Of a stretch of 64,000 nt of DNA, positions 14,459-60,593 are shown piece by piece. Under the pieces are notes generated by a model, which worked only from the letters and a program-made list of their open reading frames with translations, searched no databases and was not told the origin of the DNA. How positions within the stretch are numbered: the first letter of the stretch is position 1; the number at the start of each line of letters is the position of its first letter. The translations under genes were made by a program, and so were the position numbers. Source of the stretch: Azospirillum brasilense (lineage in GTDB: Bacteria; Pseudomonadota; Alphaproteobacteria; Azospirillales; Azospirillaceae); assembly GCF_007827795.1 (NCBI RefSeq), contig NZ_VITI01000001.1, positions 806,001-870,000 of the forward strand. Direction: 5' to 3'.

Positions 14459-16473
<2,015 letters not shown>

Positions 16474-18601: not shown

Positions 18602-18636
18602 CCCGGCCGCGGCGTGACAAACGCGCCGCGTCGCTC

Positions 18637-18652
18637 TGTTTCACGTGAAACA
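18637..18652. promoter_or_regulatory. parS: parS centromere site, perfect 16-base copy
   Basis: TGTTTCACGTGAAACA is an exact match to the consensus ParB site. It lies in the 109-base gap between mnmE and mnmG. Confidence 0.95.
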
Positions 18653-18710
18653 CGGGCGTTGCGGCGTCGCGGCGCTTGGCGTCCGGCGTTGACTCGGCTA
18701 TGGTCCGGCC

Positions 18711-44233: not shown

Positions 44234-45228
44234 CGGCTGGCTCCCCCGCTCAGGCGGATGCGCGGGTCGAGGGCGGCCAGCGCCAGATCGGACAGGAAGA
44301 CCCCGATCACCGTCAGAACCGCCAGGAACATCAGGAAGGAGCCGGCCAGATACATGTCCTGGCTGCGCAGCGCCTGGAGCAGCATCGGCCCCGTCGTCGG
44401 CAGCGACATCACCACCGACACGATGGCGGCGCCGGAGACGACCTGCGGCAGCAGGTTGCCGATGTCGGACACGAAGGGGTTCAGCGCCACCCGCAGCGGG
44501 TACTTCACCAGCGCCCGGCCCGGCGGCAGGCCCTTGGCCCGCGCGGTGACGACGTAGGGCTTGTGCAGCTCGTCCAGCAGGTTGGCGCGCAGGCGGCGGA
44601 TCATCGCGGCGGTGCCGGCGGTGCCGATGACGATCACCGGAATCCACATGTGCTCGAACACGCTCATCGCCTTGCCCCAGCTCCAGGGCTGGCCGATGTA
44701 GCGCGGGTCCATCAGCCCGCCGATCGAGGTGCCGAACCATACGTTGGCGAAATACAGCATCACCAGCGCCAGCAGGAAGCTGGGCGTCGCCAGCCCCAGG
44801 AAGCCGAGGAAGGTCAGGACATAGTCGCCCAGGCTGTACTGCCGCGTCGCCGAATAGATGCCGATGGGGAAGGACACCACCCAGATGAAGAGGATGGTCG
44901 CGAAGGACACGATGACGGTCAGCGACAGCCGGTCGCCCACCACGTCCGACACCGGCAGGTTGTATTCGAAGGAATAGCCGAAGTCGCCGCGCAGCATGCC
45001 GGCCAGCCACAGCGCGTACTGCTCGTACATCGGCCGGTCGAGCCCGTAGGTCTCGCGCAGCATGGCCAGCCGTCCCTGGTCCATGCTCTCGCCCCGGCTC
45101 TGCATCTCGTTGACCAGCGTGGTCAGATAGTCGCCGGGGGGAAGCTGGATGATGACGAAGGTGATGACGCTGATCGCCAGCAGCGTCGGGATCATGATGA
45201 GGATGCGGCGGATCACGTAGCCCAGCAT
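44230..45228 (-). CDS. ABC transporter permease, DppB/YejB type
   Basis: 332 residues, starting M-L-G-Y-V-I-R-R-I-L-I-M-I-P-T, with six membrane helices and the EAA loop V-V-T-A-R-A-K-G-L near 230. L-P-P-G-D-Y and Y-G-L-D-R-P occur in the first periplasmic loop, as in DppB. It pairs with the YejE-type permease. It starts four bases after the substrate-binding protein stop in the same operon. Confidence 0.92.
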   Translation of the reverse strand: MLGYVIRRILIMIPTLLAISVITFVIIQLPPGDYLTTLVNEMQSRGESMDQGRLAMLRETYGLDRPMYEQYALWLAGMLRGDFGYSFEYNLPVSDVVGDRLSLTVIVSFATILFIWVVSFPIGIYSATRQYSLGDYVLTFLGFLGLATPSFLLALVMLYFANVWFGTSIGGLMDPRYIGQPWSWGKAMSVFEHMWIPVIVIGTAGTAAMIRRLRANLLDELHKPYVVTARAKGLPPGRALVKYPLRVALNPFVSDIGNLLPQVVSGAAIVSVVMSLPTTGPMLLQALRSQDMYLAGSFLMFLAVLTVIGVFLSDLALAALDPRIRLSGGASR

Positions 45229-47323: not shown

Positions 47324-49221
47324 CACGCCACCTCCCGCACGCGGACGGCGGCGTCGGCGCGCACGCAATGGCCGCCGCCGAGATCGACCAGATGGGGCTG
47401 GTGGTCCGCATCGATGGTGAAGGGGGCGGGCCAGCGCGCGGGGTCGGAGGCGCGGCCTTCCTCCAGGTCGGTCAGCGACAGCGGGCGGCTGGGGTCCGGC
47501 TCCGGCACGGCGGTCAGCAGGGCACGGGTGTAGGGGTGGACGGGGTTGCGGAACAGCGCCTCGCGCGGGGCCGACTCGACGATCCGCCCACGGCACATCA
47601 CCAGGATGCGGTCGGCCATGTAATCCACCACGGCCAGATTGTGGCTGACGAACAGGTAGGTCAGGCCGAGCCGCTCCTTCAGGTCCTTCAGCAGGTTCAG
47701 CACCTGCGCCTGGATCGACACGTCGAGCGCCGACACCGGCTCGTCGAGCAGCAGAAGCTCGGGCCGCAGCGCCAGCGCGCGGGCGATGCCGATGCGCTGG
47801 CGCTGGCCGCCGGAGAAGCTGTGCGGGTAGCGGCGCAGATGCCGCGCGTCCAGCCCGACCAGCCCCATCAGTTCCTTCACCCGCGCGGCGCGCTCCGCCT
47901 CGTCGCCGATGCCGTGGATGACCAGCGGTTCGGCGATGATGTCGAAGACGGTCATCCGGGGGTTCAGCGAGCCGAAGGGGTCCTGGAAGACGAACTGCAC
48001 CTTGCGGCGGAAGGCGGTCAGGGCCGCACCCTCCAGCTCCAGAACGTCGACGATCCGGCCATGGTCGTTGAAGCGGACGCTGCCCTGATCCGGAGTCAGG
48101 GCGCGCATCAGGATCTTCGACAGGGTGGTCTTGCCGCAGCCCGACTCGCCGACCAGCCCGACGCATTCGCCGCGCGCGATGGCGAAGCTGACGTCGTCCA
48201 CCGCCAGCGTGCCCGCCCCGGCCTTGGCACCGAACCAGCCGGCCTTGCGCGCCCCGTAAAGCTTGCGCACCCCCTCCACTGCCAGCAACGGCCCCGCCGC
48301 GTCGGCGCCGGGCGGCCAGGGCTGATGGTCCTTCTCCAGCAGGCTGCCGCCCTGCGACGTGATGGAGCGGATCGGCACCAGCCGTTCCCCCGGCGCCATG
48401 TGGAAGCGCGGAACGGCGCGCAGCAGCGCCTTGAGATAGGGATGGCGGGGGTCGGCGAAGATGTCCTCGCGCGTGCCGGATTCCATGATCCGCCCGCGGT
48501 GCATCACCACCACCTCGTCGGCGAGGTTGGCGACCACCCCCAGGTCGTGGGTGATGAGCAGGACGGCCATCCCGAGATCGGCCTGGAGGTCCTTGATCAG
48601 CTTCAGGATCTGCGCCTGGATGGTGACGTCCAGCGCGGTTGTCGGCTCGTCGGCGATCAGCAGGGCGGGGCGGCAGACCAGCGCCATGGCGATCATCGCG
48701 CGCTGGCGCAGGCCGCCCGACAGCTCGAACGGGTAGGTGTCCAGCGCCCGCTTCGGGTCTGGGAAGCGCACCCGGCGCAGCATGTCCTCCGCCTGGGCGC
48801 GGGCCTGCCGGGCGGTCACCCGCTGGTGCAGCCGCACCGCCTCACCCACCTGATCGCCCACCGTGTGCAGGGGCGACAGCGACGTCATCGGCTCCTGGAA
48901 GATGATCGAGATGCGACCGCCGCGCAGCGCCCGCATCGCCGTGCCGTCGGCCTTCAGCGAAGCGATGTCGACGGGGCCGGCGCCGTTGTTGACGATCCCG
49001 TCGTCGAATAGGATTTTTCCATCCGCGATGGCGGCGTTGCGGGGCAGGATGCGCAAAATCGACTGCGCCGCCACCGACTTGCCCGAGCCGGATTCGCCGA
49101 CCAGGGCGACGGTGGAGCCCGCCCGCACCCGGAAGGACACGCCGCGCACCGCCTGGACCACGCCGCCCGGCACCTGGAAATCGACCTTCAGGTCCTCCAC
49201 CCGGAGCAGCGTGCGGCTCAT
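47323..49221 (-). CDS. Fused double ATP-binding subunit of peptide ABC transporter (YejF/DppDF type)
   Basis: 632 residues with two complete ABC domains: Walker A G-E-S-G-S-G-K-S near 40 and G-E-S-G-C-G-K-T near 375, signatures L-S-G-G-L-R-Q and F-S-G-G-Q-R-Q, Walker B L-L-I-A-D-E-P-T and L-L-L-L-D-E-P-V. Each has the oligopeptide-type C-terminal extension (H-P-Y-x-x-A-L-L). One polypeptide can therefore drive the DppB/DppC-type permease pair. The stop overlaps the substrate-binding-protein start; its own start overlaps the upstream membrane-protein stop. Confidence 0.94.
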
Positions 49222-49775
49222 GGCGCCGGCCTCGTCTCGTTGGGGTCCTCCGGCGGCTCGATGCCGAGAGCGATCAGATTGTCCACCGTCACCGGGGTCA
49301 GCGCCACGCCGTTGCGCCCGGCGGCGAGGGCGGCCTGTTCGATCACCGCGTCGAAGCCCTCCAGGTTGCTGTCGAAGCGCAGGGTCGTGCCGCCGCCGCT
49401 CAGCGTCGCCTGCATCCAACCGTCGTCGCGTCCCCGCCTGGTCGCGTAGTAGCGCAGCCTCAGCCCGGACAGCGCGTCCCAGCGGATGGCGCCGCCCAGC
49501 GGCCCGTCGGCCCGCAAGCCCTCGCCGTCCATGGTCAGGCGGGTCAGCTGGCGTTGCAGGGTGCGCGCCGCGAAGACGGCGAACAGCGCCGCGCAGGCCG
49601 CCAGCGGCACGGCGATCCAGGGGGTGACGGGCAGGAAGGCCAGCGGCAGAACCGTCAGCGCCAGCCCGGCCCCGGCCCGCGCGTAGTCGCCGGCCAGCGC
49701 CCCGGCGGGGTAGCGCATCTCCGCGACGGTCGGCGTCTCCCCGGTCGAGGGTCGGGCCATGGGCAGCTCGGCCAT
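49218..49775 (-). CDS. Membrane protein of unknown function
   Basis: 185 residues with two adjacent hydrophobic segments (about 33-50 and 52-70) and a cytosolic C-terminal domain ([28 protein letters not shown]) resembling a PH-like fold in layout, though I do not recognise a named family. It lies between the deacetylase (three bases upstream) and the transporter ATPase (overlapping), so it probably belongs to the same operon and might connect envelope modification to transport. Confidence 0.75.
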
Positions 49776-49778
49776 GTC

Positions 49779-50585
49779 TCAGCGATGTCCTTCTGCGGCG
49801 AACAGGGTCTCAGCAGCCAGCCAGCGGACCGCCGGATGACGGCGGGTCGCGGTCAGGAAACGCGCGGTGAAGGCCCAGGTTTCAACGTCCATCGCCAAAT
49901 GATGCGTCAACAGGCCGGTCGGCTCCTCCGCGTCCACCGCGCCCAGCCGCCGGGCACGCAGATGGGCGACCGCCATGCCCAGCGACTCCGCGTCGCCCAT
50001 GAAGCGCTTGCCGTCCTTCCAGGCCACCGGGTCGATGTGTGTATTGACACACATCATGTTGACGGTTGACACACGTCGCGGCCCGAAAACCGACAGGCCG
50101 GCGAAGCCCGCGCCGGGCAGACCCGCCGCGACGCCGGGCGCGATGCGGTTCCACGGCGGCACCAGGACGGGCAGGGCGCGCGGCCCGAACCGGCGGTCCA
50201 GCACGGCCCGTCCCTCGGCCAGCTCCGCCAGCACGGCGGCGGCAGGCCGGTCCGCGCCAAGCTCCGCCTTCTTCGCGGGGGGAGCGGCATGGTCGGTGTG
50301 CGACCAGCCGTGCTGAAGCACCGTGACGGTGGGGGCCGCGTCCACAACGGGGACGAGGGCGTCCTTGACGCCCGCCGGGATGACCGCCAGGGCCAACGGC
50401 GCGCCGGTTTCGATGGACAGGGCGATCATCCGGTCGAGGTCGGGCGTCGGCGCGACGGCATCGTCGTCGCGCCACCAGAGAGTGGCGGTGCGCCCGGCGG
50501 AAGCCCAGGCGTCCAGCTCGGCGGTCAACGCGTCCCAACCGGCGCGCGGCGGGCTGTCGGAAGGGGCGGTTGCGGTCACGGTCAT
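49779..50585 (-). CDS. Polysaccharide deacetylase-family protein
   Basis: 268 residues. Catalytic-type motifs of the CE4 family can be seen: W-W-R-D-D-D-A near residue 38 (metal/base aspartates), H-G-W-S-H-T-D-H near 90 (metal histidines), and P-P-W-N-R near 145. It should deacetylate a glycan, yet no signal peptide is visible, so it may act on a cytosolic precursor. It is first in a six-gene operon leading to the peptide-type transporter and is separated from the glycosyltransferase operon by a repeat. Function is by family only. Confidence 0.85.
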
Positions 50586-50774: not shown

Positions 50775-51932
50775 TTAGCGACTGTTGCCTTGGCGGTAGG
50801 CCACCGCGTCCAGCAGCAGACGGGCTGTGGCGGCGGCGCCGTCGAGGCGCAGCGGGATGGCCGGCGGCGGGGGCAGGGCGAGCGCCTTCGCCAGGCCCGC
50901 GGCCAGGGTCTCCGGGGTCAGGGTGGCCTCGTCGACCACGGCCAGACGGCCCCGCTGCTCCAGCAGGCGGGCACGGGTGGCCTGCTCGGTCTCGCTGCCC
51001 GCGGCGAAGGGGACGACCACCGCCCGGCAGCCGGCCTGAAGCACGTCGAGCACGGTGTTGTAGCCGGCCTGGCTGATCGACAGACGGCAGCGGCGGAGCA
51101 GGGCGGGAAAGTCGGGCCGCGCCCGCTCCACGATGGCGCCCGGCGGGGCCGCGGCGGCGAGCGCGCGGAAGTCCTCCTCCGGCACGTCCGGCCCGGCCAG
51201 CAGGCGCCATGGTGCGTCAAGTCCGGCCGGAGTTGACGCACGCACCGCCAGCGCCGCCCGCAGCAGCGGCAGGCCGACCGCCCCGCCGCCCACCGACACG
51301 ATCACCTCATCCGTGCCGTCCGTCGATTCGGTGTCCGCGCCCTGCGGGGCCGCGACATAGCCGGTGTAGCGGATGCGGCCGGCGATCCGCGCCGCGGCGG
51401 GGAAGGTCGCCGCGAAGGGGATCAATTGCGGGTCGCCATGGACCAGCACATGGTCGAACAGCCGTTCCACCGTCGAAACGGTTTCCTCCAGCCGCTCCGG
51501 CTTGGCCTTGGTCACCAGGATGTCGCGCACCGAAGCGGCGGTGACCGCCCCGCCGGCTTTCGCGGCCTCCAGCAGCGGCAGAAGCTCGAACCGGAAGGCG
51601 CGGCGTCCGAAGGGGAAGGATTCGACCAGCAGCGCATCGGGCCGCACCCGGTCATGGGTGGCCAGAACCGCGGCGCGGCGCCGGGCCCGCCAGTCGTCGT
51701 CGATGGGCCGGTCGTGCTCGTCCAGCAGGGTCTTGAAGCCGCTGTCGGCGGCGCGGGCGGGGGGAAGCTGGACGATCTCCGCTGCCGGGCCGTAATCGAT
51801 CCCCGGCACCGGATGCCCGCCGCGCAGCACCGTGACGGCGACGCCGGCCTCGGTCAGCCCGCGGGTGATCAGCGCGGCGCGCCGGTCGTGCCCGATGCCC
51901 AGCAGATGCTGGACATGGAAAAGAACATGCAT
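50775..51932 (-). CDS. MurG/GT28-like glycosyltransferase A
   Basis: 385 residues. N-terminal F-H-V-Q-H-L-L-G-I-G-H-D-R-R and C-terminal S-I-S-Q-A-G-Y-N-T-V-L-D-V-L-Q-A-G-C-R-A-V-V-V-P-F are the acceptor-loop and donor-sugar motifs of MurG-like enzymes. It shares the G-x-G-H-x-R-R motif with the enzyme encoded at 55256, so the pair are distant paralogues on both arms of the locus. It is third in the operon ABC protein, CNB protein, GT, with six bases to the preceding stop. The sugar and acceptor are unknown. Confidence 0.86.
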   Translation of the reverse strand: MHVLFHVQHLLGIGHDRRAALITRGLTEAGVAVTVLRGGHPVPGIDYGPAAEIVQLPPARAADSGFKTLLDEHDRPIDDDWRARRRAAVLATHDRVRPDALLVESFPFGRRAFRFELLPLLEAAKAGGAVTAASVRDILVTKAKPERLEETVSTVERLFDHVLVHGDPQLIPFAATFPAAARIAGRIRYTGYVAAPQGADTESTDGTDEVIVSVGGGAVGLPLLRAALAVRASTPAGLDAPWRLLAGPDVPEEDFRALAAAAPPGAIVERARPDFPALLRRCRLSISQAGYNTVLDVLQAGCRAVVVPFAAGSETEQATRARLLEQRGRLAVVDEATLTPETLAAGLAKALALPPPPAIPLRLDGAAATARLLLDAVAYRQGNSR

Positions 51933-51938
51933 GAGTTG

Positions 51939-52394
51939 TCAGACCGCCTGGGCGGCCAGCACCTCGCGCAGGCGCGCGGTCGTCTGCTCCAGGCGGTGGG
52001 CCAGGGAGCGCATGATCTCCAGCCCCATCTGCGGGAAGTCGGCGACCATCTGAAGGAAATGGTCCTTCGGCACGCACAGCGCCTCCAGGTCGGTGCTGGC
52101 GCGGACGGTGGCGGTGCGCGGCACGTCGCACAGGATGGCGATCTCGCCGACGATCTCGTTGGACCCCAGCGTCGCGACGGCCAGCGGCCCGCCGGGGCCG
52201 GTCACGATCACCTCGGCCTCCCCGCGCAGCAGGATGTAGGCGCAGGTGCCCATCTCGTCCTGCTCGAACAGGATGTCGCCCGACCGGAAGCTCAACCGTT
52301 CGCTGGTAAAGGCGAGAAGCTTGAGCTTGGCAGTGTCGATGTTGGCGAACAGGGGAATCCTGCGCAGGCAATTGACTTCTTCGGCGATGCTCAT
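51939..52394 (-). CDS. Stand-alone cyclic-nucleotide-binding domain protein
   Basis: 151 residues, almost entirely one Crp-type nucleotide-binding domain: G-D-I-L-F-E-Q-D-E near 40, the phosphate-binding cassette V-G-E-I-A-I-L...P-R-T-A-T-V-R-A near 82-100 with both key Glu and Arg kept. No helix-turn-helix or enzyme domain follows; only a 30-residue helix. It therefore should sense cAMP, cGMP or c-di-GMP and pass this to a partner. It is encoded 28 bases after the ABC gene and six before the glycosyltransferase, suggesting a partner role with the ABC protein. Confidence 0.9.
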   Translation of the reverse strand: MSIAEEVNCLRRIPLFANIDTAKLKLLAFTSERLSFRSGDILFEQDEMGTCAYILLRGEAEVIVTGPGGPLAVATLGSNEIVGEIAILCDVPRTATVRASTDLEALCVPKDHFLQMVADFPQMGLEIMRSLAHRLEQTTARLREVLAAQAV

Positions 52395-52422: not shown

Positions 52423-55062
52423 TTATTCGGCGGTCACCAATTCATGCAACAACGTACCGGGCCTGTTCAACTCGTCGAAGCGCCCATGTTCGGCGATTCG
52501 CCCGTCCTTCATTACAATGACTCGCTCGAACGCCCGTGCCAAGCCGGCGCGGTGCAGAACCCACACAAGACCACATCCTTTGCGTTCCCCCATGATCGCG
52601 GAATGCACCTTCGTCTGGCTGCTGGTGTCCAGGCCGCTGGTCGCCTCGCTCAGTACCAGCAGGTCCGGGCGCTTCAGCAGGGCGCGGGCCAGCGCCGCCT
52701 TCTGGCGCTGCGCCGCGGACAGGCGCGACCCGGCGACCCCCACGGGATGGTCCAGCCCGACCTCCACGATGGTGTCGCGCAGGTGAAGCTGGTCGACCAG
52801 CTCCGCCACGATGCGGCCCACCTTGGATTGCACCTGCGCCTGCCCGTAGACCATCTTGCCGAACAGGATGTTGTCCTGGATGCTGGCCGCGGCGTTGTAG
52901 GCCTCCGGGTCGAAGAAGGCGACGGCGTGCTTCAGGTCCGCCGGCAGGTCGCTGGCGAAGAGGTGCCGCGCCTCCAGAAGCTTCTTCTCCAGGTCCGGGG
53001 TCATCAGACCCAGACGGTGGCGGGCGCCGATCAGCTTGAAGGGCAGGGTCATCAGCCGCGTCCGCTCCTCGGGCCGCAGCGTGCCCAGACCCTCCTTCGC
53101 GGTGCGCGCAAGGATGCCCTGGTACTCCGGCAGCTCGGCGAAGCCGATGAAGGAGAAGCGTTCGAAGAACTCGTGGCCGGGCGGCAGGCCGGCGAACAGC
53201 TCGACCATGGTTTCCGCCACCTTGTGGCCGGTCTCCAGGATGGTGTCGGTCAGCCCCACCTTGTCCAGCACATGCAGCATGTAGGGGTTGGAGGCCAGCG
53301 CGTCGGTCTGGAAGATCGGGCCGACCGGCGTGCCGAACAGCAGATTCTCCGCCAGCGTGGCGTTCGCGGCGTAGCGGTCGGGGTCGAAGCGCTCCACCAG
53401 CCGCCCCAGGTCCGGGTTGTTCAGCATCGTGGCGCGCATGGCGTCGCGCGCCTCCAGCACGCGGGCGGCCACGTCGGGGCGCCGCTCCGGATCGACGGTG
53501 CGGTTGAGGCCCATGCCGTACACGTCGTCCTGAAGCGATACCATCGTCACCACGCGCAGGATGCGGGTCTTCAGATCCTCCGGCCCGTCGCAGCCGGCGG
53601 CAGCGTAGTCGATCCAGTCGGCGTCCACGTCGTCGGTGGCGTTGCCGGACAGCACCGACTCGGTCATCCGCTTCTTGCGCCGCTCCGCCGCTTCCTCACT
53701 GCCGCCGTTCTCGCGCAGCGGCCGGTGGCGCAGCCCATAGACGAGGTTGTCGTAGAGCGAGGCCGAGAACAGGTAGGGGGTGGCGCCGACATAGGCGGCG
53801 CGCCGCCCGGTCACGCTTTCCGGCAGCTCTGCATAGTCACGCTCGCCCAGCCGGATCTGGCCCGACGAGGGCAGCAGCACGCGGGCGGCGAGCTGCGCCA
53901 GCTCGTCCCGCCCGGAGCCGACGCCGATCAGCGCGGTGTGGCCGTCCAGCGGGATGTCGCAGGTCACCCCCTCCAGGATGGGCGAGCCGCCGTCCTCCCC
54001 GAACGCGACGTTGCGGAAGGACAGGCTGCCCTTGAACGGGACGTCCTCCTCCTCGCGCAGCAGGCGTTCGGCCAGCAGGTCGGGGACGTGGAACTGCTCC
54101 ACCACCTGCTCGTACTTGATCCGGTTGTCCTCCTTCTGCTGGTACCAGTCGAGAAGCTCCTTCCAAGGGGCGGCCAAGTCCTTGTAGGCGGCCAGCACCG
54201 CGACCAGCGCGCCGAAGGACAGCTGGCCGTGGATCACCAGATATCCGCCGATCGAATAGAAAAAGAACGGGGTCAGCTGGTTTATGAAGTTGTTCAGGAA
54301 TTTGACAAAAAACTTTCTTTGGTAAATCTCGAAACGGATGCGGTACACGTCGCCCAGGCGGTGGCTGAGATCGGCGAGATGCCAGGACGCGGTGTTGTGG
54401 GTGTGCACCTCCTGGATGCCGGACACCGTCTCCCCGATGCGGTCGGCGATCTGGCGCATGGCACGTACGCGCTGTTTGCCAAGCTGATTGACCTTGCGCT
54501 GCAGCCGTGGGATGAGCCAGCCTTGGAACGGGTACAGCGACACCGCCGCTGCCCCCAGAACCGGGTCCTGAACGAAGATGAAGGCGATGTAGACCAGCAG
54601 GGTGCCGCCCTGGAACACCGGGATGGCGATGGCGTCCCCGATGAAGCCGCCCAGCGGCTCCACCTCCGCCGTGATCATGGGGATGATCTCCCCGGGCGAC
54701 ATCTTGCGGAAGCGGGGCAGGGGGAAGCGCAGGACGCGAACGTACAGCTCGTACCGCAGGCGGCGCAGCATCCGCTCGCCCAGCCGGCCCTTGTAGGTGT
54801 TGATGACGTACTTGAACGCGCCGTTGACCAGCACCAAAGTCAGGAACAGTCCGCATAGGACGAACAGATAGCTGACCTGATCGAGATGGAAGCCTAGGAA
54901 GGACTCCGGCAGCTTCTTCCCGGCGATCGCCTCGTTGACGATCCGCTTCGGTAGGTCGAGCGAGGCGTAGAGGAACGGAAAGGACGCCAGGGTCATCAGG
55001 GTCAGCACGATCTGCTGACGGACGCTGTGCCGAAGGATGAATCGGAAAATGCTGGATTCCAT
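52423..55062 (-). CDS. ABC exporter-like protein with degenerate ATPase motifs and a large internal insertion
   Basis: 879 residues; ordinary half-exporters have about 600. Residues 1-330 are a six-helix exporter membrane domain. The ATPase domain begins near 345, but Walker A reads G-V-G-S-G-R-D-E (380-387) instead of G-x-G-K-S/T, and Walker B ends L-L-V-L-S-E-A (801-807) with Asp replaced by Ser. The signature is L-S-A-A-Q (781-785); the D-loop S-G-L-D and switch His (V-L-H-R) remain. Between Q-loop and signature lie about 340 residues, where about 95 are usual, holding two further copies of the post-Q-loop motif: S-L-Y-D-N-L-V-Y-G (435), T-L-A-E-N-L-L-F-G (569), S-I-Q-D-N-I-L-F-G (727). 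It heads the operon with the nucleotide-binding protein and a glycosyltransferase. Confidence 0.9.
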   Translation of the reverse strand: MESSIFRFILRHSVRQQIVLTLMTLASFPFLYASLDLPKRIVNEAIAGKKLPESFLGFHLDQVSYLFVLCGLFLTLVLVNGAFKYVINTYKGRLGERMLRRLRYELYVRVLRFPLPRFRKMSPGEIIPMITAEVEPLGGFIGDAIAIPVFQGGTLLVYIAFIFVQDPVLGAAAVSLYPFQGWLIPRLQRKVNQLGKQRVRAMRQIADRIGETVSGIQEVHTHNTASWHLADLSHRLGDVYRIRFEIYQRKFFVKFLNNFINQLTPFFFYSIGGYLVIHGQLSFGALVAVLAAYKDLAAPWKELLDWYQQKEDNRIKYEQVVEQFHVPDLLAERLLREEEDVPFKGSLSFRNVAFGEDGGSPILEGVTCDIPLDGHTALIGVGSGRDELAQLAARVLLPSSGQIRLGERDYAELPESVTGRRAAYVGATPYLFSASLYDNLVYGLRHRPLRENGGSEEAAERRKKRMTESVLSGNATDDVDADWIDYAAAGCDGPEDLKTRILRVVTMVSLQDDVYGMGLNRTVDPERRPDVAARVLEARDAMRATMLNNPDLGRLVERFDPDRYAANATLAENLLFGTPVGPIFQTDALASNPYMLHVLDKVGLTDTILETGHKVAETMVELFAGLPPGHEFFERFSFIGFAELPEYQGILARTAKEGLGTLRPEERTRLMTLPFKLIGARHRLGLMTPDLEKKLLEARHLFASDLPADLKHAVAFFDPEAYNAAASIQDNILFGKMVYGQAQVQSKVGRIVAELVDQLHLRDTIVEVGLDHPVGVAGSRLSAAQRQKAALARALLKRPDLLVLSEATSGLDTSSQTKVHSAIMGERKGCGLVWVLHRAGLARAFERVIVMKDGRIAEHGRFDELNRPGTLLHELVTAE

Positions 55063-55255: not shown

Positions 55256-56488
55256 ATGAGCGAACGTCCGACCTCGGGCCGCGTGCTCATCTACAGCCAT
55301 GACACGTTCGGCCTTGGCCATCTGCGCCGCTGCCGGGCCATCGCCCATGCGCTGGTGGAACGCTACAGCAACCTGTCCGTGCTGATCCTGTCCGGCTCGC
55401 CCATCGTCGGCAGCTTCGACTTCCGCACGCGGGTGGATTTCGTGCGCATCCCCGGCGTCATCAAGCTGCGCAACGGGGAATACACGGCGCTGAACCTGCA
55501 TCTGGACATCGATGAGATCCTGTCCATGCGGGCCTCGCTGATCCGCCACACGGCGGAGATCTACCAGCCCGACCTGTTCATCGTGGACAAGGAACCGCTC
55601 GGCCTGCGCGGCGAGGTGCGGGAGACGCTGGAGCTTCTGAAGGGCCGCGGCGTGCCGCTGGTTCTGGGCCTGCGCGACGTGATGGACGAGCCGGCCCTGC
55701 TCGCCCCGGAGTGGGAGCGCAAGAAGGTCCTGCCGGCGCTGGAGAACCTCTACGACGAGATCTGGGCCTACGGCCTGCCGCAGATCTGCGACCCGCTGGA
55801 GGGGATCGAGGTCCCGCAGTCGGTGCGCGACAAGATGGTCTATACCGGCTACCTGCACCGCACCGTGCCCCCGGCGGTCCCGCACGGTCCCGGCCTGCCG
55901 GACGAACCCTACATCCTGGTCACCCCCGGCGGCGGCGGCGACGGCGAGGCGCTGGTCGACTGGGTGCTGCGCGCCTACGAGAGCGATCCCGGCATCCCCT
56001 ACCGTGCCGTGCTGGTGTTCGGCCCCTTCATGCAGCCGGACCTCCAGGCCGAGTTCCTGGCCCGCGCCGAGGCCCTGCCCAACGTCGAGGCCACCGCCTT
56101 CGAGGCGCGGATCGAGCGGCTGATGCAGGGCGCGGTCGGGGTGGTCGCCATGGGCGGCTACAACACCTTCTGCGAGATCCTGTCCTTCGACAAGAAGGCG
56201 CTGATCGTCCCGCGCGAGGTGCCGCGGCGCGAGCAGACCATCCGCGCCGCCCGCGCGCAGGAGCTGGGTCTGGTCTCCGTCCTGATGGACGACGGGGTGC
56301 GCGACGCCGCGGCGATGGCGGCGGCGCTGCGGCGGCTGCCCTGGCAGGCGCCGCCCTCCTCGGTCGTGGTGCCGGGCCTGCTCGGCGGGTTGGAGAGCGT
56401 CAACCGCCTGTCGGCGCGCTACCTTCCGGAGCCGTCCTCCGAACCCTGCGCTTCGGAGCGCCAGCTGGCCGCCGGGGACGCCGCGTGA
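55256..56488 (+). CDS. MurG/GT28-like glycosyltransferase B
   Basis: 410 residues, beginning R-V-L-I-Y-S-H-D-T-F-G-L-G-H-L-R-R-C-R-A-type N-terminus and ending with the donor-binding segment V-A-M-G-G-Y-N-T-F-C-E-I-L-S-F. L-V-T-P-G-G-G-G-D-G in the middle starts the second Rossmann half. It is divergent from the ABC gene across 193 bases and overlaps the next glycosyltransferase start, so a second operon of the same cluster starts here. The substrate is unknown. Confidence 0.87.
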   Translation: MSERPTSGRVLIYSHDTFGLGHLRRCRAIAHALVERYSNLSVLILSGSPIVGSFDFRTRVDFVRIPGVIKLRNGEYTALNLHLDIDEILSMRASLIRHTAEIYQPDLFIVDKEPLGLRGEVRETLELLKGRGVPLVLGLRDVMDEPALLAPEWERKKVLPALENLYDEIWAYGLPQICDPLEGIEVPQSVRDKMVYTGYLHRTVPPAVPHGPGLPDEPYILVTPGGGGDGEALVDWVLRAYESDPGIPYRAVLVFGPFMQPDLQAEFLARAEALPNVEATAFEARIERLMQGAVGVVAMGGYNTFCEILSFDKKALIVPREVPRREQTIRAARAQELGLVSVLMDDGVRDAAAMAAALRRLPWQAPPSSVVVPGLLGGLESVNRLSARYLPEPSSEPCASERQLAAGDAA

Positions 56489-57759
56489 CCGTTGCCGTCA
56501 TCGTGAAGGGCTGGCCCCGCCTGTCGGAAACCTTCATCGCGCAGGAGGTTCTGGGGCTGGAACGGCGGGGATTGCGTCAACTGATCGTCAGCTTGCGTCA
56601 ACCGACCGACAAGGCGGTGCACGAGCTGAACCGCCGCGTCACCGCCCCGGTGACCTATCTGCCTGAATATCTGCGCGACGCGCCCGCCCGCGTGCTGCGC
56701 GCGCTGGCGGCGGCGCGGCGGCGTCCCGGCTGGCCGGCGGCACGGGCCGCCTGGCTGGCCGACCTGCGGCGCGACCCCAGCCGCAACCGCGTGCGCCGCT
56801 TCGGCCAGGCCTGCGTGCTGGCGGCGGAACTGCCGGCGGACGTCACCTGGCTGCACACCCATTTCCTGCACACGCCGGCCAGCGTCGCGCGCTACGCGGC
56901 GCTGCTGACCGACCTGCCCTGGAGCTTTTCCGCCCACGCCAAGGACATCTGGACCTCGCCGGACTGGGACCTGCGGGACAAGCTGGCGGAGGCGCGCTGG
57001 GGCGTCACCTGCACCGCGCTCGGCCTCGCCCGCCTGCGCGCCCTGGCGCCGGAACCGGAACGGGTGGATCTGCTTTACCACGGCCTGGACTTCAGCCGCT
57101 TCCCCGCCCCGCCGGACGCGCGCCCGGCGCGCGACGGGTGCGACCCCGCCGATCCGGTGCGGCTGCTGTCGGTCGGGCGGGCGGTGGAGAAGAAGGGCTT
57201 CGACCTGCTGCTCGACGCGCTGGCGCGCCTGCCCGCCGGGCTGCACTGGCGCTGGACCCACATCGGCGGCGGCGACCGGCTGGCGGCGCTGAAGGCGCAG
57301 GCGGCGGCGCTGGGGCTGGAGGGGCGGATCGACTGGCAGGGGGCGAAGGCCCAGGACGCGGTGATCGCCCAGTACCGCTGCGCCGACCTGTTCGTCCTGC
57401 CCTGCCGCACCGCCCGCGACGGCGACCGCGACGGGCTGCCCAACGTGCTGATGGAGGCGCAGAGCCAGGGGTTGGCCTGCCTGTCCACCCGCGCCGCCGC
57501 GGTGGCCGAGCTGATCGAGGATGGGGTCACCGGCACGCTGGTGGACCCCGAAGACCCCGCCGCGCTGGGCGGCGCGCTCGAATCGCTGATCCGCGACCCG
57601 GCCCGCCGTGCGGCGCTGGCGGCGGCGGGTGCCGCGCGGGTGCGGCGCGATTTCGGCAGCGACTCGGGCATCGACCGGCTGCATGACCGTTTCACAACCG
57701 GAAATAGACGGTCGTCCTTTATGCCATTTGGGGGATGCTGTGCGTTGCACGGCGGCTGA
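56485..57759 (+). CDS. GT4-family glycosyltransferase
   Basis: 424 residues from a GTG overlapping the upstream stop (GTGA). GT4 motifs: W-P-R-L-S-E-T-F-I-A near residue 10, H-T-H-F-L-H near 130, F-S-A-H-A-K-D-I-W near 150, L-S-V-G-R-A-V-E-K-K-G-F-D near 230, and D-G-L-P-N-V-L-M-E-A-Q-S-Q-G near 320 (donor site). It transfers a sugar from a nucleotide donor to a growing glycan or lipid carrier in the cytosol. The C-terminal twenty residues (N-R-R-S-S-F-M-P-F-G-G-C-C) look non-homologous. Confidence 0.9.
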   Translation: MTVAVIVKGWPRLSETFIAQEVLGLERRGLRQLIVSLRQPTDKAVHELNRRVTAPVTYLPEYLRDAPARVLRALAAARRRPGWPAARAAWLADLRRDPSRNRVRRFGQACVLAAELPADVTWLHTHFLHTPASVARYAALLTDLPWSFSAHAKDIWTSPDWDLRDKLAEARWGVTCTALGLARLRALAPEPERVDLLYHGLDFSRFPAPPDARPARDGCDPADPVRLLSVGRAVEKKGFDLLLDALARLPAGLHWRWTHIGGGDRLAALKAQAAALGLEGRIDWQGAKAQDAVIAQYRCADLFVLPCRTARDGDRDGLPNVLMEAQSQGLACLSTRAAAVAELIEDGVTGTLVDPEDPAALGGALESLIRDPARRAALAAAGAARVRRDFGSDSGIDRLHDRFTTGNRRSSFMPFGGCCALHGG

Positions 57760-57800
57760 TGACGGGATAGAGTGCGGCTTTGCTCCACCTCTGCGACGTC

Positions 57801-58781
57801 ATGTCGACTCTGTCCGCCTTCTCCGAACCGGAAATCCTTTCCTTCATCGACTTCGACGACGACAGCGATGCCGTGGCGACCAGCCACGAGCTGTCGCTGA
57901 CGCGCAGCAAGCTGGGCGACATGCTCGACCTGCTGCCCGCCGGGCTGTTGATCCATCAGGAAATGGGCATCGTCTTCGCCAACCAGGAGGCGGCGCGCAT
58001 CCTGGGCCAGAGCGGCGATGCCCTGGTCGGGCGCCATTTCCTGGACTTCGTCGAGGAGTCGGGCATCGACGACCAGCGGGGCGCCTTCCTGCGCTGCCTG
58101 CGCGAGCGGGAGCTGGTGCGGTCCCAGGACGGGGTGATGGTGTCCACGGATGGGCAGCGCACCTGCGTCCAGGTCAGCATGTCGCCCCTGCCCTGGGACG
58201 GGTTGCCGGTCATCTACGTCCTCATCAACGACGTGACGGCTCTGAAGGAGTCGGAGGAGCGGCTGCGCCGGCTCTCGATCACCGACTCGCTGACCGGCGT
58301 GTCCAACCGCCGCCATTTCGTCGAAGCGGCGGAGCAGGAGCTGGCCTGCGCCCGCCGCTATGGCCGGCCGGTTACGCTGCTGATGCTCGACCTCGATCAT
58401 TTCAAGAGCATCAACGACACCCACGGCCACGCCGTGGGAGACGAGGCGCTGCGGACCTTCACCGCCGCCTGCCGCGCTCTGCTGCGCGAGAACGACCTGC
58501 TGGGCCGCACTGGCGGCGAGGAGTTTGCCATCCTGCTGCCGGAAACCGACGTCGCCGGTGCGCGCATGGTGGCGGAGCGCATCCGTCGCCGCACGGCGGA
58601 GCTGGCGGTACTGGCGGGAGTCGAGACGGTGCGCTTCACCGTGTCGATCGGCGTGGCCTGCTGCGCCGCCGGGACGCGCGACGTGGACGCCATGTTGTCC
58701 AGCGCGGACGAGGCGCTGTACCGCGCCAAGGCCGCCGGACGGAACCGGGTCGTCTGCGCGCGGGAACCGACCCCGTTCTGA
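57801..58781 (+). CDS. PAS-GGDEF diguanylate cyclase
   Basis: 326 residues: PAS domain (about 42-150) and GGDEF domain (about 160-320) with an intact active site G-G-E-E-F at 238-242 and an R-x-x-D inhibitory site (229-232), so it should make c-di-GMP and be product-inhibited. No membrane segment is visible. It lies between two glycosyltransferase genes on the same strand, suggesting that c-di-GMP controls this glycan system. The ATG at 57801 is preferred to a TTG at 57780. Confidence 0.92.
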   Translation: MSTLSAFSEPEILSFIDFDDDSDAVATSHELSLTRSKLGDMLDLLPAGLLIHQEMGIVFANQEAARILGQSGDALVGRHFLDFVEESGIDDQRGAFLRCLRERELVRSQDGVMVSTDGQRTCVQVSMSPLPWDGLPVIYVLINDVTALKESEERLRRLSITDSLTGVSNRRHFVEAAEQELACARRYGRPVTLLMLDLDHFKSINDTHGHAVGDEALRTFTAACRALLRENDLLGRTGGEEFAILLPETDVAGARMVAERIRRRTAELAVLAGVETVRFTVSIGVACCAAGTRDVDAMLSSADEALYRAKAAGRNRVVCAREPTPF

Positions 58782-58812
58782 GCGTCCTTCCCTTCACGTC
58801 ACCGGGGCCGCG

Positions 58813-60012
58813 ATGCGCATCGCCTTCTACGCCCCGCTGAAATCCCCGACCCACCCGGTGCCCTCGGGCGACCGGCGCATGGCCCGGCTTCTGATGGCCG
58901 CCTTGGAGGGGGCTGGGCACAGGGTGACGCTGGCCTGCACGTTGCGCAGCTGGGACGATGGGCGCCGTCCGGGCCGGGCGGAGCGTCTGGCCGCGCTGGG
59001 GACCCGCTGCGCCGACCGCCTGACGGTGCGCTGGCGGGACGATCCGCCGGACCTTTGGTTCACCTACCACCTGTACCACAAGGCGCCGGACTGGATCGGC
59101 CCGGCGGTCAGCCGTCGCTTCGGCATCCCCTATGTGGTGGCGGAGGCGTCCTTCGCGGCCAAGCGCGCCGTCGGCCCCTTCGCCGCCGGCCACCGCGCCG
59201 CCGAGGCGGCGATCCGGCAGGCGGCCGCCGTCGTCAACCTCGCCGGCCACGACGCCGAGGGGGTGCTGCCGCTGCTCGAATCGCCGGACCGGCTGGTGCG
59301 GCTGCGGCCCTTCCTCGACACGCGTCCCTTCGCGGCCGCCGCCACGGAGCGCGACCGGCACCGGGCGGCGCTGGCTGAACTCTATGGCTTGAACCCGGAC
59401 GTCCCGTGGCTGCTGGCCGTCGGCATGATGCGCGGCGGTGACAAGGAACGCTCCTACGAGATCCTGGCGCAAGCCCTCTCTCCCTCCCCCGCCCAGCGGG
59501 GGAGGGCCGGGGTGGGGGCGAGTCCGCATCTGCTGATCGCCGGCGACGGTCCCGCGCGTTCCCGGATCGAGACATTGTTCGGGGGAGGCGCACTTGCCCC
59601 CACCCCACCCCTCCCCCGCTTTGCAGGTGAGGGAGTCTTGTTCCTCGGCCAGCAAAGTTCGGACGCCCTCACCGCCCTCTACGCCGCCGCCGACCTGATG
59701 GTCTGGCCGGCGGTGAACGAAGCCTACGGCATGGCCCTGCTGGAGGCCCAGGCCGCCGGGCTGCCAGTCGTTGCGGGACGCACGGGAGGGGTGCCGGACG
59801 TGGTGCGCGACGGGGTGACCGGCCTGTTGCCTCCCGTGGGCGACGCGGAGGCCTTCGCCGCCGCCGTCAGGGCGCTGCTCGACGACCCTGGGAAACGCCG
59901 CCGCTTCGGGGAGGCCGCGCGCCGCATCGCCGTCGAGGAACACGATCTGTCCATCGCGGTGGAGGCGCTGGACGCGGTGGTCCGGCGCGCCGCGCGGAAA
60001 GGGAACGCATGA
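58813..60012 (+). CDS. GT4-family glycosyltransferase carrying in-frame repeat-derived segments
   Basis: 399 residues with GT4 landmarks: N-terminal P-S-G-D-R-R-M-A-R, V-G-M-M-R-G-G-D-K near 205, L-I-A-G-D-G-P-A-R near 241, Y-A-A-A-D-L-M-V-W-P-A-V-N-E-A-Y-G-M-A-L-L-E near 297. Two segments foreign to the family (residues 222-236 and 257-273, S-P-S-P-A-Q-R-G-R-A-G-V-G and A-L-A-P-T-P-P-L-P-R-F-A-G-E-G) are encoded by GC-rich repeat units at 59476-59521 and 59581-59631; both keep the frame and fall between secondary-structure elements. The stop overlaps the next start. Confidence 0.88.
   Translation: MRIAFYAPLKSPTHPVPSGDRRMARLLMAALEGAGHRVTLACTLRSWDDGRRPGRAERLAALGTRCADRLTVRWRDDPPDLWFTYHLYHKAPDWIGPAVSRRFGIPYVVAEASFAAKRAVGPFAAGHRAAEAAIRQAAAVVNLAGHDAEGVLPLLESPDRLVRLRPFLDTRPFAAAATERDRHRAALAELYGLNPDVPWLLAVGMMRGGDKERSYEILAQALSPSPAQRGRAGVGASPHLLIAGDGPARSRIETLFGGGALAPTPPLPRFAGEGVLFLGQQSSDALTALYAAADLMVWPAVNEAYGMALLEAQAAGLPVVAGRTGGVPDVVRDGVTGLLPPVGDAEAFAAAVRALLDDPGKRRRFGEAARRIAVEEHDLSIAVEALDAVVRRAARKGNA
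59476..59640. repeat. REP-like repeat pair inside a glycosyltransferase gene, copy 4
   Basis: Two palindromic units, CTCCCCCGC-ccag-GCGGGGGAG and its partner CCCACCCCTCCCCCGC, about 70 bases apart in inverted orientation. They belong to a related but not identical repeat class compared with 12862 and 50594. Both are translated. Confidence 0.8.
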
Positions 60013-60593
60013 CCGACCTCATCATCCTGCGGCACGGGCCGACCGCCTGGAACGCCGCGCACCGTCTCCAGGGCGGCATCGACGAGCCGCTGTCCGACGA
60101 GGGCCGCGCCCGAGTCGGGACCTGGAGGCTGCCGCCGGACGTGCTGGGCTACCGTTGGGTTGCCAGCCCGAAGCGGCGGGCCTGGGAGACGGCCCGGCTG
60201 CTCGGCCTCGACCCGGCGCCGGAACCGCGTCTGGTCGAGATGAGCTGGGGGGTGTGGGAAGGCCGCCTGCTGGAGGAGTTGCGGTCGAGCGGCGCCCTGA
60301 CCGCGGACCGCGAACGGATGGGCCTCGACTTCCGGGCGCCGGGCGGGGAAAGCCCGCGCGACGTGCAGAACCGGCTGATCCCCTGGCTGGCCGAGGTCGG
60401 TGCTGGGGGCGTGCCGACCGGGGCGGTGGCCCACAACGGGGTGATGCGGGCGCTCTACGCGCTGGCCACCGGCTGGGACATGGTGGGCAAGCCCGCCCAC
60501 CGCCTGACCGACAGCTGCGCCCACCGCTTCCGGGTCGCGGAGGACGGGACGCCGTCGGTCGTAGCGATGAACGTGCCGCTGACGGCGCCGTGA
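60009..60593 (+). CDS. Histidine phosphatase-family protein
   Basis: 194 residues, beginning with the catalytic motif L-R-H-G-P-T (His9), with S-P-K-R-R-A-W-E-T-A near 54 and the second histidine in V-A-H-N-G-V-M-R near 141. Members hydrolyse phosphomonoesters on sugars, nucleotides or proteins. Its start overlaps the stop of the glycosyltransferase gene, so it likely works on a sugar phosphate or lipid-phosphate intermediate of the same pathway, which is an inference from position. Confidence 0.88.
   Translation: MTDLIILRHGPTAWNAAHRLQGGIDEPLSDEGRARVGTWRLPPDVLGYRWVASPKRRAWETARLLGLDPAPEPRLVEMSWGVWEGRLLEELRSSGALTADRERMGLDFRAPGGESPRDVQNRLIPWLAEVGAGGVPTGAVAHNGVMRALYALATGWDMVGKPAHRLTDSCAHRFRVAEDGTPSVVAMNVPLTAP

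Follow-up and report, generated by a model that had tools for sequence, protein, structure and literature searches.

The window, a 64,000-nucleotide stretch of Azospirillum brasilense DNA, encodes a degenerate ABC exporter-like protein (52423..55062, minus strand; an open frame of 879 aa) composed of a membrane domain and an interrupted nucleotide-binding domain (NBD). The protein appears to belong to a large uncharacterised alphaproteobacterial subfamily, and its gene is accompanied by one for a cyclic-nucleotide-binding (CNB) protein. The best reading of the data is a gate or flippase controlled by cyclic nucleotides (cNMP) and serving a glycan pathway, whose cargo and energy source we infer.

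Exporter fold and degenerate ATP site

By homology and fold, the protein is a type IV ABC exporter with a six-helix membrane domain fused to an NBD. Pfam matches were obtained to ABC_membrane (PF00664, 4.1e-20) and ABC_tran (PF00005, 9e-10), and both Pfam and the AF2 model assign an exporter fold to the membrane domain (residues 1–330; 54073..55062, minus strand). The whole predicted model (pLDDT 84.9) superposes on MsbA with a Z of 29.6 over 461 residues, and the NBD fold is kept, covering 238 of the 239 residues of the ComA NBD at an rmsd of 1.8 Å. The best NCBIfam match, MsbA_lipidA, scored 180.7 bits, far under the cut-off of 602.

The observation made in the earlier note, an exporter-like protein with degenerate Walker motifs and an insertion, was confirmed as a whole. 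The Walker A motif GVGSGRDEL (residues 380–388; 53899..53925, minus strand) has indeed lost its lysine, with Lys replaced by Arg and Ser/Thr by Asp. Compared with GxxGxGK, one residue is missing from the P-loop, which is the case in 21 of the 174 family members compared (window protein counted). The proposed loss of the Walker B aspartate also holds: in the segment of residues 801–812, LLVLSEATSGLD, the motif LLVLSE (residues 801–806; 52645..52662, minus strand) has Ser instead of Asp at position 805 and keeps the catalytic Glu 806. The D-loop Asp 812 and the switch His 837 (52552..52554, minus strand) remain, as the earlier note had stated, but the signature, which it had counted with them, is itself degenerate, being LSAAQ (residues 781–785; 52708..52722, minus strand). 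The Q-loop Gln is absent (YVGATP). At the five key sites (Walker A Lys and Ser/Thr, Walker B Asp and Glu, and the switch His), the window protein reads R, D, S, E and H, and it lacks both the full five-residue set and the LSGGQ signature of an ATP-driven pump. As controls, six further ABC proteins encoded in this genome all keep GxxGxGK[ST], LSGG[QE] and the Walker B DE; they derive from seven loci, L003 and L007 being one gene, and the membrane part of the window protein matched only some of them.

A repeated helical region within the NBD

The Walker A-to-signature distance is 401 residues in the window protein versus 103–104 in the six same-genome ABC proteins. The extra residues between the Q-loop and the signature, previously put at about 250, do lie there and are more numerous, about 271–297 (about 297 by motif spacing); the stretch without a counterpart in ordinary exporters comprises residues 446–716 (271 aa; 52915..53727, minus strand), which were predicted separately with a pLDDT of 88.9 and a pTM of 0.67. 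The motif x-x-N-L/I-x-x-G occurs, as reported, in three copies, at residues 435 (SLYDNLVYG), 569 (TLAENLLFG) and 727 (SIQDNILFG); the expected F-D-P-x-x-Y comes before the second (FDPDRY) and the third (FDPEAY). The view that the insertion holds additional motif copies was correct, but the repeat exceeds the motif: any two of the units align over 54–62 profile columns. Helical unit 1 (residues 422–555; 53398..53799, minus strand) starts at the Q-loop position, unit 2 (residues 556–713; 52924..53397, minus strand) is an extra copy, and unit 3 (residues 714–805; 52648..52923, minus strand) leads on into the signature and Walker B, the arrangement of an ordinary NBD. Profile–profile alignment with hhalign gave E-values of 4.4e-7 for units 1 and 2, 3.8e-14 for units 2 and 3, and 1.7e-6 for units 1 and 3; since the controls reached only 0.0014 or worse, the likeness of the units goes beyond chance. 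Judged by these profiles, the insertion repeats part of the helical region of the NBD itself, in two extra tandem copies.

Fold comparison supports the same conclusion more weakly. Model residues 562–704 superpose on NBD helical regions with a best Z of 6.1; with residues 446–716 alone, ABC proteins filled the 13 top rows (Z from 6.1 to 4.4), and another, tied with an unrelated protein, came 14th (Z 3.6). The chain ranges are scattered for rows 9nfi and 9ctg, residues 446–561 are barely covered by the ABC rows, and a Z below 8 is weak by itself, the repeat being carried by the sequence profiles. The ends of units 1 and 2 match each other over 30 profile columns (E 7.2e-6), and from this and the fold comparison we infer that they are equivalents of the signature helix.

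Foldseek run with residues 446–716 alone gave no match at E ≤ 0.001, a PDB sequence search with a profile of residues 440–755 gave none at E up to 10, and no Pfam match fell on residues 435–658. An origin of the insertion from a foreign domain was rejected on the absence of PDB and Pfam matches in these searches, the ABC proteins in the top fold rows and the unit profiles.

Family distribution and selection

The earlier note treated the protein as a single oddity; it proved instead to have many relatives, and among 385 genomes sampled from the same class (Alphaproteobacteria), 131 carry the insertion. The first locus set comprised the best 80 of 538 relatives (at least 592 pattern matches) and, being restricted to the best matches, is biased towards near relatives; a further 80 regions were picked to offset this bias (81 were chosen, of which G563:C88 was left out), and the 105-locus set used below includes repeated genes, for example L191 and L030. 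An earlier alignment held the best 80 loci and 21 first rows, 77 of the 80 being complete at the five positions. The five-site counts start from 186 rows (window protein counted), of which 177 were unique and 174 complete, while the tree has 171.

None of these 174 members keeps all five key residues: 37 keep none, 38 one, 64 two, 29 three and six four. Counted by residue, 81 members retain Lys, 18 Ser/Thr, 31 Asp, 92 Glu and 55 His, and the exact LSGGQ signature occurs in none. Two of the best-preserved members, from one genus and both CNB-fused, have Lys, Ser/Thr, Asp and Glu and lack only the switch His; four more retain four of the five. The combination named in the earlier note as speaking against it, the same insertion with normal Walker motifs, is approached by these six homologues and found in none of the 174.

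The pattern bears on whether the protein could be an active ATPase with a non-standard site, in which a P-loop Lys or Arg and an acid replace the Mg2+ ligands and the CNB protein gates hydrolysis. We consider this unlikely, although it could draw on the P-loop Gly384, present in all 78 rows having that position, on the frequent retention of Glu and on the six members with four key residues. Of the rows with an acid at the Walker A Ser/Thr site, 111 have a non-Asp Walker B and nine have Asp; of those with a non-acid residue there, 32 have non-Asp and 22 have Asp. However, this association fails an independent-pairs test on the tree (10 supported pairs, median p 0.5), the P-loop Lys is kept in only 6 of 24 CNB-fused members versus 75 of 150 others, and exact LSGGQ is missing throughout. 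The more specific notion of a carboxylate swap, with the acid at the Ser/Thr site as a relocated Mg2+ ligand, was rejected on the result of the same test.

The loss of catalytic residues, as well as a Sinorhizobium meliloti 1021 record that is out of frame at the family gene, could also be taken as signs of a decaying gene or a chance artefact. This is highly improbable, as a long open frame contains the insertion both in the window and in all 105 diverse loci, the locus structure is conserved, and the overall dN/dS is 0.07–0.09 (a simple NG86 estimate from three same-genus pairs, which gave 0.16–0.18 for the insertion and 0.012–0.022 for the membrane domain, residues 1–340); together, these data are strongly against decay. 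On this sequence evidence, the family gene is under purifying selection.

Cyclic-nucleotide link, gene neighbourhood and proposed function

The gene for the CNB protein (151 aa; 51939..52394, minus strand; Pfam cNMP_binding 6.7e-21) starts 28 bp past the stop codon of the ABC gene, its ATG being preceded by GAGGAGG. Checking the operons of homologues for such a protein, as had been proposed, was rewarding: it is encoded just downstream or fused in all of the best 80 of 538 relatives (fused in three) and in 96 of 105 loci of the wider set, in which some genes are repeated. In a FastTree tree of 171 rows, the CNB-fused members need one change. The Glu and Arg of the phosphate cassette are present in the CNB domain of the partner; within the binding motif GEIA...PRTAT, Glu84 is found in 78 and Arg93 in all of 79 sequences from the best 80 loci. 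Judging from these residues, the conserved ligand pocket encoded beside the ABC gene is suited to a cyclic nucleotide. In nine of the 105 loci, no CNB was recognised within 1.7–2.4 kb downstream, and three CNB-less members (L218, L219 and L226) are among the six with the best-kept ATP sites. Of 131 carrier genomes, 130 have a class III cyclase (PF00211), compared with 119 of the 254 non-carriers; these are raw counts in which genome size and ancestry are confounding factors. The cNMP link of the family is well supported, while the CNB protein could act elsewhere than on the ABC protein. The lone carrier without a class III cyclase, G143, is also one of the nine CNB-less loci.

Downstream of the CNB gene on the minus strand are genes for a family 28 type glycosyltransferase (GT28a; 50775..51932; Pfam Glyco_tran_28_C 6e-11) and a conserved protein (49779..50585) with 42% identity to a Mesorhizobium protein annotated as a polysaccharide deacetylase, neither of these two relatives having a Pfam match. 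They are followed on the same strand by genes of an oligopeptide-type importer, encoding a dual ATPase (47326..49260 as searched, start provisional; Pfam ABC_tran in two stretches and oligo_HPY), a family 5 solute-binding protein (45236..47050 as searched, start provisional; SBP_bac_5 6.4e-51) and two permeases (44233–45228, and 43049–44242 as searched; BPD_transp_1 1.1e-27 and 1e-29). Divergently transcribed on the plus strand are genes for a second family 28 type glycosyltransferase (GT28b; 55256..56488; Glyco_tran_28_C 7.3e-5), a family 4 glycosyltransferase (GT4; 56488..57759 as searched, start provisional; Glycos_transf_1 2.7e-29), a PAS-GGDEF protein (57780..58781; GGDEF 4.3e-48), a second GT4 (58801..60012 as searched; Glycos_transf_1 2e-28) and a histidine phosphatase superfamily protein (60009..60593; His_Phos_1 1.6e-31). 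Among the 59 of the best 80 loci whose upstream sequence spans 4.3 kb or more, homologues of these divergent genes were found for GT4 in 50 (it is missing from nine), GT28b in 46, the second GT4 in 47, the histidine phosphatase protein in 39 and the PAS-GGDEF protein in five. Of the window genes compared, only the CNB gene is a more frequent neighbour than those for glycosyltransferases.

According to excerpts of PMC7756269, exporters that are not homodimers often have degenerate sites, and the window protein might be the degenerate half of a heterodimer whose partner supplies the functional ATP site, like TM287/288 or TmrAB. We regard this as very unlikely, because no second exporter half was detected near the family gene: in the best 80 loci, several of which are short, no other ORF matched the N-terminal 300 residues of the controls at E 1e-5. 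A partner encoded away from the locus is conceivable.

As a separate candidate, a defence system was rejected: PADLOC matches reflected generic similarity of the NBD (mad3) and the CNB (Pycsar TIR effector), and the Pfam matches of the window neighbours scanned included neither a TIR domain nor a class III cyclase.

A less probable explanation than the one we favour is a pseudo-transporter with SUR-like logic, a cNMP-responsive membrane scaffold or receptor that moves nothing and controls a partner such as a glycosyltransferase complex. It would account for the lack of a complete ATP site in all 174 members and for the prominence of glycosyltransferase neighbours, and the conserved enlarged helical region could serve protein contacts. 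However, constraint is strongest in the membrane domain, a pattern more easily explained by a transport path.

With moderate confidence, we favour a cNMP-controlled protein of exporter fold that operates without an ordinary ATP cycle and takes its partner CNB as the control input. Of the earlier suggestions of a regulated channel, a flippase-like scaffold or an ATP sensor, what stands is a non-standard, probably regulated exporter-like protein paired with a CNB; an ATP sensor is conceivable. Members of this subfamily would presumably form homodimers, with nucleotide sites lacking the full residue set for ATP hydrolysis. Upon binding cAMP or cGMP, the CNB protein, encoded adjacent or fused to the ABC protein, would dock at the NBD side; the enlarged helical region, as the part of the NBD that touches the membrane domain, would be the likely relay, and the membrane domain would be opened, closed or reoriented. 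The gene neighbourhood further hints that the cargo may be a glycan or glycolipid from the neighbouring glycosyltransferases, perhaps moved downhill or by another energy source, and any nucleotide at the NBD might be structural or regulatory. Since Glu and His are kept in the window protein, Lys in 81 of 174 members and four of five residues in six, ATP binding or slow hydrolysis is possible. In a stronger and only tentative version, a CNB sensor acting via the three-copy helical unit would have replaced the ATP cycle in a cyclic-nucleotide-gated transporter or channel, which would release or flip a glycan in response to a second messenger and be in wide use among Alphaproteobacteria; in Azospirillaceae, the signal would perhaps be cGMP during encystment.

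The membrane-domain fold and NBD core are common to the window protein and the type IV exporters of the MsbA, ABCB and PCAT1 type, whereas the absence of a complete ATP site in 174 members, the three-copy helical unit and the dedicated CNB partner set the family apart. An ABCC protein is a single chain in which one site largely works, and to our knowledge ABCC proteins have neither a CNB partner nor a repeated helical unit, while the window protein has both. SUR1/SUR2 and CFTR, which excerpts of PMC7756269 describe as ABCC proteins regulating or forming channels, resemble it in a degenerate site and in putting the exporter fold to a use other than simple pumping, and SUR2 and CFTR NBD1 appear among the fold matches of its model. 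The CNB partner has the Pfam domain and binding motif of the CNB domains of CRP, PKA/PKG and MlotiK1, but those are paired with a DNA-binding, kinase or channel domain, and here the pairing is with an ABC exporter-like protein. The SbmA/BacA peptide transporters, which have an exporter-type membrane domain and no NBD and work without ATP hydrolysis, are a precedent for ATP-free transport by this membrane fold; unlike them, the window protein has an NBD that is present in the model, conserved and enlarged. A literature search by title and abstract, with subscription papers little covered, found no exporter described with such an insertion or a CNB partner.

Binding and hydrolysing ATP is what defines an ABC exporter, and this widespread family is a natural test of what the exporter fold is capable of when that ordinary cycle is missing. 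Bacterial cAMP and cGMP, whose known targets are mostly transcription factors, would gain one in membrane transport, and the glycosyltransferase locus conserved in Azospirillum and rhizobia would become accessible to biochemistry.

In excerpts of a study of the Rhodospirillum centenum CgrA regulon (PMC4681086), two rows are ABC transporters, neither tied to the window gene. The pSymB record of S. meliloti 1021 has no gene annotated at the family-gene site; SMb20813, called an S. meliloti msbA homologue in excerpts of PMC10945364, may or may not be the counterpart of the window gene.

Predicted exporter fold and ATP-site residues

The degenerate ABC exporter-like gene (window positions 52423–55062, minus strand) encodes a protein of 879 amino acids. 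Pfam searches revealed the membrane domain of an ABC exporter (PF00664, 4.1e-20) and a match to the ABC nucleotide-binding domain (NBD; PF00005, 9e-10) covering only its C-terminal part, at residues 721–809; the top NCBIfam match was MsbA_lipidA, with 180.7 bits versus a cut-off of 602. The AlphaFold2 model built from 66 aligned sequences (pLDDT 84.9, pTM 0.79; weak spots in the membrane part at residues 158–177 and 283–297) shows an exporter fold, which in a fold comparison aligned with MsbA over 461 residues at 4.8 Å (Z 29.6). The NBD core matched 238 of the 239 residues of the ComA NBD at 1.8 Å; therefore, the modelled NBD is complete, and the large insertion between the Q-loop and the signature is additional to it.

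The earlier note had claimed the loss of the Walker A lysine and the Walker B aspartate, and this observation was confirmed: Walker A reads GVGSGRDEL, one residue short, with Lys replaced by Arg and Ser/Thr by Asp, and Walker B reads LLVLSE, with Asp replaced by Ser and Glu retained. The Q-loop Gln is missing. Among the elements described there as remaining, the D-loop Asp and the switch His are indeed both retained, while the signature is a degenerate LSAAQ. As a control, six further ABC proteins encoded in this genome (seven loci, two of them being one gene) were compared, and all retain GxxGxGK[ST], LSGG[QE] and the Walker B DE, with 103–104 residues between Walker A and the signature versus 401 in the window protein.

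The triplicated motif reported in the insertion was borne out as three tandem units (residues 422–555, 556–713, and 714–805), each starting with a Q-loop-like strand and an xxNLxxG turn, followed by helices. Profile–profile comparisons linked unit 1 to unit 2 (E 4.4e-7, 54 columns), unit 2 to unit 3 (E 3.8e-14, 62 columns), and unit 1 to unit 3 (E 1.7e-6, 62 columns), versus E of 0.0014 or worse for controls with other protein parts and reversed profiles. The helix–strand stretches ending units 1 and 2 also match each other (30 columns, E 7.2e-6). Structure prediction of the insertion alone, proposed in the earlier note, gave a model of residues 446–716 (pLDDT 88.9, pTM 0.67) with no Foldseek matches at E ≤ 0.001; in a second fold search, the 13 top rows were all ABC proteins (Z 6.1 to 4.4), aligned with residues 562–704 of the window protein. 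The first of them was CFTR NBD1 (67 residues, 2.3 Å, chain 495–564), a segment that extends from the Q-loop to beyond the signature. A Z of about 6 is modest; combined with the profile comparisons, it supports the presence of the helical region in three copies. The ends of the units may correspond to the signature helix.

Distribution of the family and retention of ATP-site residues

Within the genus, 32 of 37 genomes (the window's genome counted) have relatives sharing the insertion, as do 36 of the 61 genomes searched overall, 131 of 385 sampled across the class, and 31 of 398 sampled across the phylum; this last group consists of the window's genome plus 30 further genomes, all from its class. 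Plasmid records, including those of Rhizobium and Sinorhizobium, also carry relatives, 263 of them with the insertion. A pattern scan of genome contigs yielded at least 538 relatives, the best 80 of which are mostly labelled as Alphaproteobacteria or its genera, together with several Betaproteobacteria-labelled MAGs and one titled Anaerolineae. The protein from this last MAG is 57% identical to the window's, reflecting either a mis-binned contig or a transfer. The ABC gene is out of frame on the pSymB record of S. meliloti 1021 (locus L273, 7001–9713) and uninterrupted on that of strain 2011 (L274); either a sequencing error or a genuine difference between the strains explains this.

Residues were counted in 174 unique family members complete at five key positions, the window protein included. 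The Walker A Lys is kept in 81 of them, the Walker A Ser/Thr in 18 (with Asp or Glu there in 120), the Walker B Asp in 31, the Walker B Glu in 92, and the switch His in 55; none has an exact LSGGQ signature. None, one, two, three, and four of the five residues are kept in 37, 38, 64, 29, and 6 members, respectively. The earlier note had regarded homologues with the same insertion and normal Walker motifs as incompatible with its reading; none of the 174 keeps all five sites, and six keep four (L242, L265, L118, L218, L219, and L226). Two of these six, L242 and L265, from one genus and fused to a cyclic-nucleotide-binding (CNB) domain, have Lys, Ser, Asp, and Glu and lack His. In the first 80 loci alone, no member (0/77) keeps Lys, Ser/Thr, Asp, and Glu together, and the Q-loop Gln is kept in 17 of 77. 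The family combines a predicted exporter fold and an enlarged helical region with no complete ATP site in any examined member. Slow or gated ATP hydrolysis may still occur, given the Glu and His retained in the window protein and the six members with four site residues. An apparent association of an acidic P-loop residue with loss of the Walker B Asp failed a tree-based test.

Comparison with three same-genus orthologues gave dN/dS values of 0.07–0.09 for the whole window gene, 0.16–0.18 for the insertion, and 0.012–0.022 for the membrane domain. These values indicate a conserved protein rather than a relic.

Cyclic-nucleotide-binding partner and glycosyltransferase locus

A stand-alone CNB protein is encoded by the next gene (51939–52394), 28 bp downstream of the ABC gene, its ATG preceded by the ribosome-binding-site-like GAGGAGG. 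The operon association that the earlier note proposed to check was found throughout the first set of loci: in 80 of 80, a CNB homologue either follows the ABC gene in the same orientation, at a distance of up to about 0.75 kb, or is fused to it (L090, L101, and L114). In a second set, chosen to be more diverse, this applies to 96 of 105 loci, comprising 23 fusions, 71 adjacent genes, and 2 further cases. At the other nine (L218, L219, L226, L239, L240, L241, L250, L253, and L269), no CNB homologue was found in 1.7–2.4 kb downstream; three of these (L218, L219, and L226) also belong to the six members that keep four ATP-site residues, and they may form a separate group. The phosphate-cassette motif of the CNB proteins is intact (Glu in 78/79, Arg in 79/79). 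A single change accounts for the fused members in a FastTree phylogeny of 171 rows, and the NBDs of CNB-fused members are more worn, since the Walker A Lys is kept in 6 of 24 versus 75 of 150 others. In L090 (4663–8220), a GGDEF domain (Pfam 2.4e-7) is also part of the single chain, joining two second-messenger domains to an ABC exporter-like fold.

Within one sample, class III nucleotide cyclases (PF00211) were found in 130 of 131 genomes carrying the family versus 119 of 254 non-carriers (Fisher p 9e-31, uncorrected for genome size and ancestry). The only carrier without a match, G143, also lacks a nearby CNB gene (locus L250). The window's genome has eight PF00211 matches.

Divergent from the ABC–CNB pair are genes for one glycosyltransferase of GT28 type, two of the GT4 family, and a histidine phosphatase; homologues lie upstream in divergent orientation in 46, 50, 47, and 39, respectively, of the 59 loci whose flank was long enough. 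The rest of the window locus encodes a second GT28, a deacetylase-like conserved protein (sharing 42% identity with a protein annotated as polysaccharide deacetylase, with a Pfam match in neither), and an oligopeptide-type importer (solute-binding protein, two permeases, and a dual ATPase). On plasmids of R. etli and S. meliloti, the importer, glycosyltransferase, ABC, and CNB genes show this arrangement too, in order as well as orientation, with an opposite-strand methyltransferase gene in between in S. meliloti. A dedicated cyclic nucleotide sensor and a conserved glycosyltransferase neighbourhood accompany the ABC protein.

Proposed function and additional genes of the locus

We place the window protein outside the ATP-driven exporters, whose defining residues it does not fully retain, as an ABC exporter fold with a cyclic nucleotide partner; the interpretation in the earlier note is partly supported and extended. 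A search of the 80 loci revealed no second exporter half. In ABC exporters, the helical units lie opposite the coupling helices of the membrane domain, and binding of a cyclic nucleotide by the CNB partner is probably relayed through these units to gate the membrane domain. Less certainly, the cargo could be a glycan or glycolipid, and its movement passive or powered by a source other than ATP; SbmA/BacA, whose exporter-type membrane domain can function without ATP, provides a precedent.

Thr94, just after the CNB motif Arg, is found in 76 of 79 proteins, and Thr at this position is a feature of cGMP-preferring domains. According to PMC6159551, encystment of R. centenum is signalled by cGMP, and A. 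brasilense encodes cGMP production and a CgrA homologue; R. centenum is placed in the Azospirillum clade in PMC4340629. Together, these data make cGMP a candidate ligand, and no more than that.

In Mesorhizobium, the locus is flanked by two cyclase-domain genes; in strain WSM1497 (L189), a DUF3095 gene and a cyclase-domain gene (15028–16188 and 17883–19220) lie just past it. A PAS-GGDEF gene (window 57780–58781) lies within the divergent glycosyltransferase run, with homologues in 5 of the 59 loci that have sufficient flanking sequence (four Azospirillum-titled and one Roseomonas-titled, the ABC protein of the latter being 96% identical). A 185-aa protein with no Pfam match is encoded on the minus strand at 49221–49775, in the interval that separates the deacetylase-like gene from that of the importer ATPase; its homologues occur at 5 of 80 loci, each downstream on the ABC strand.
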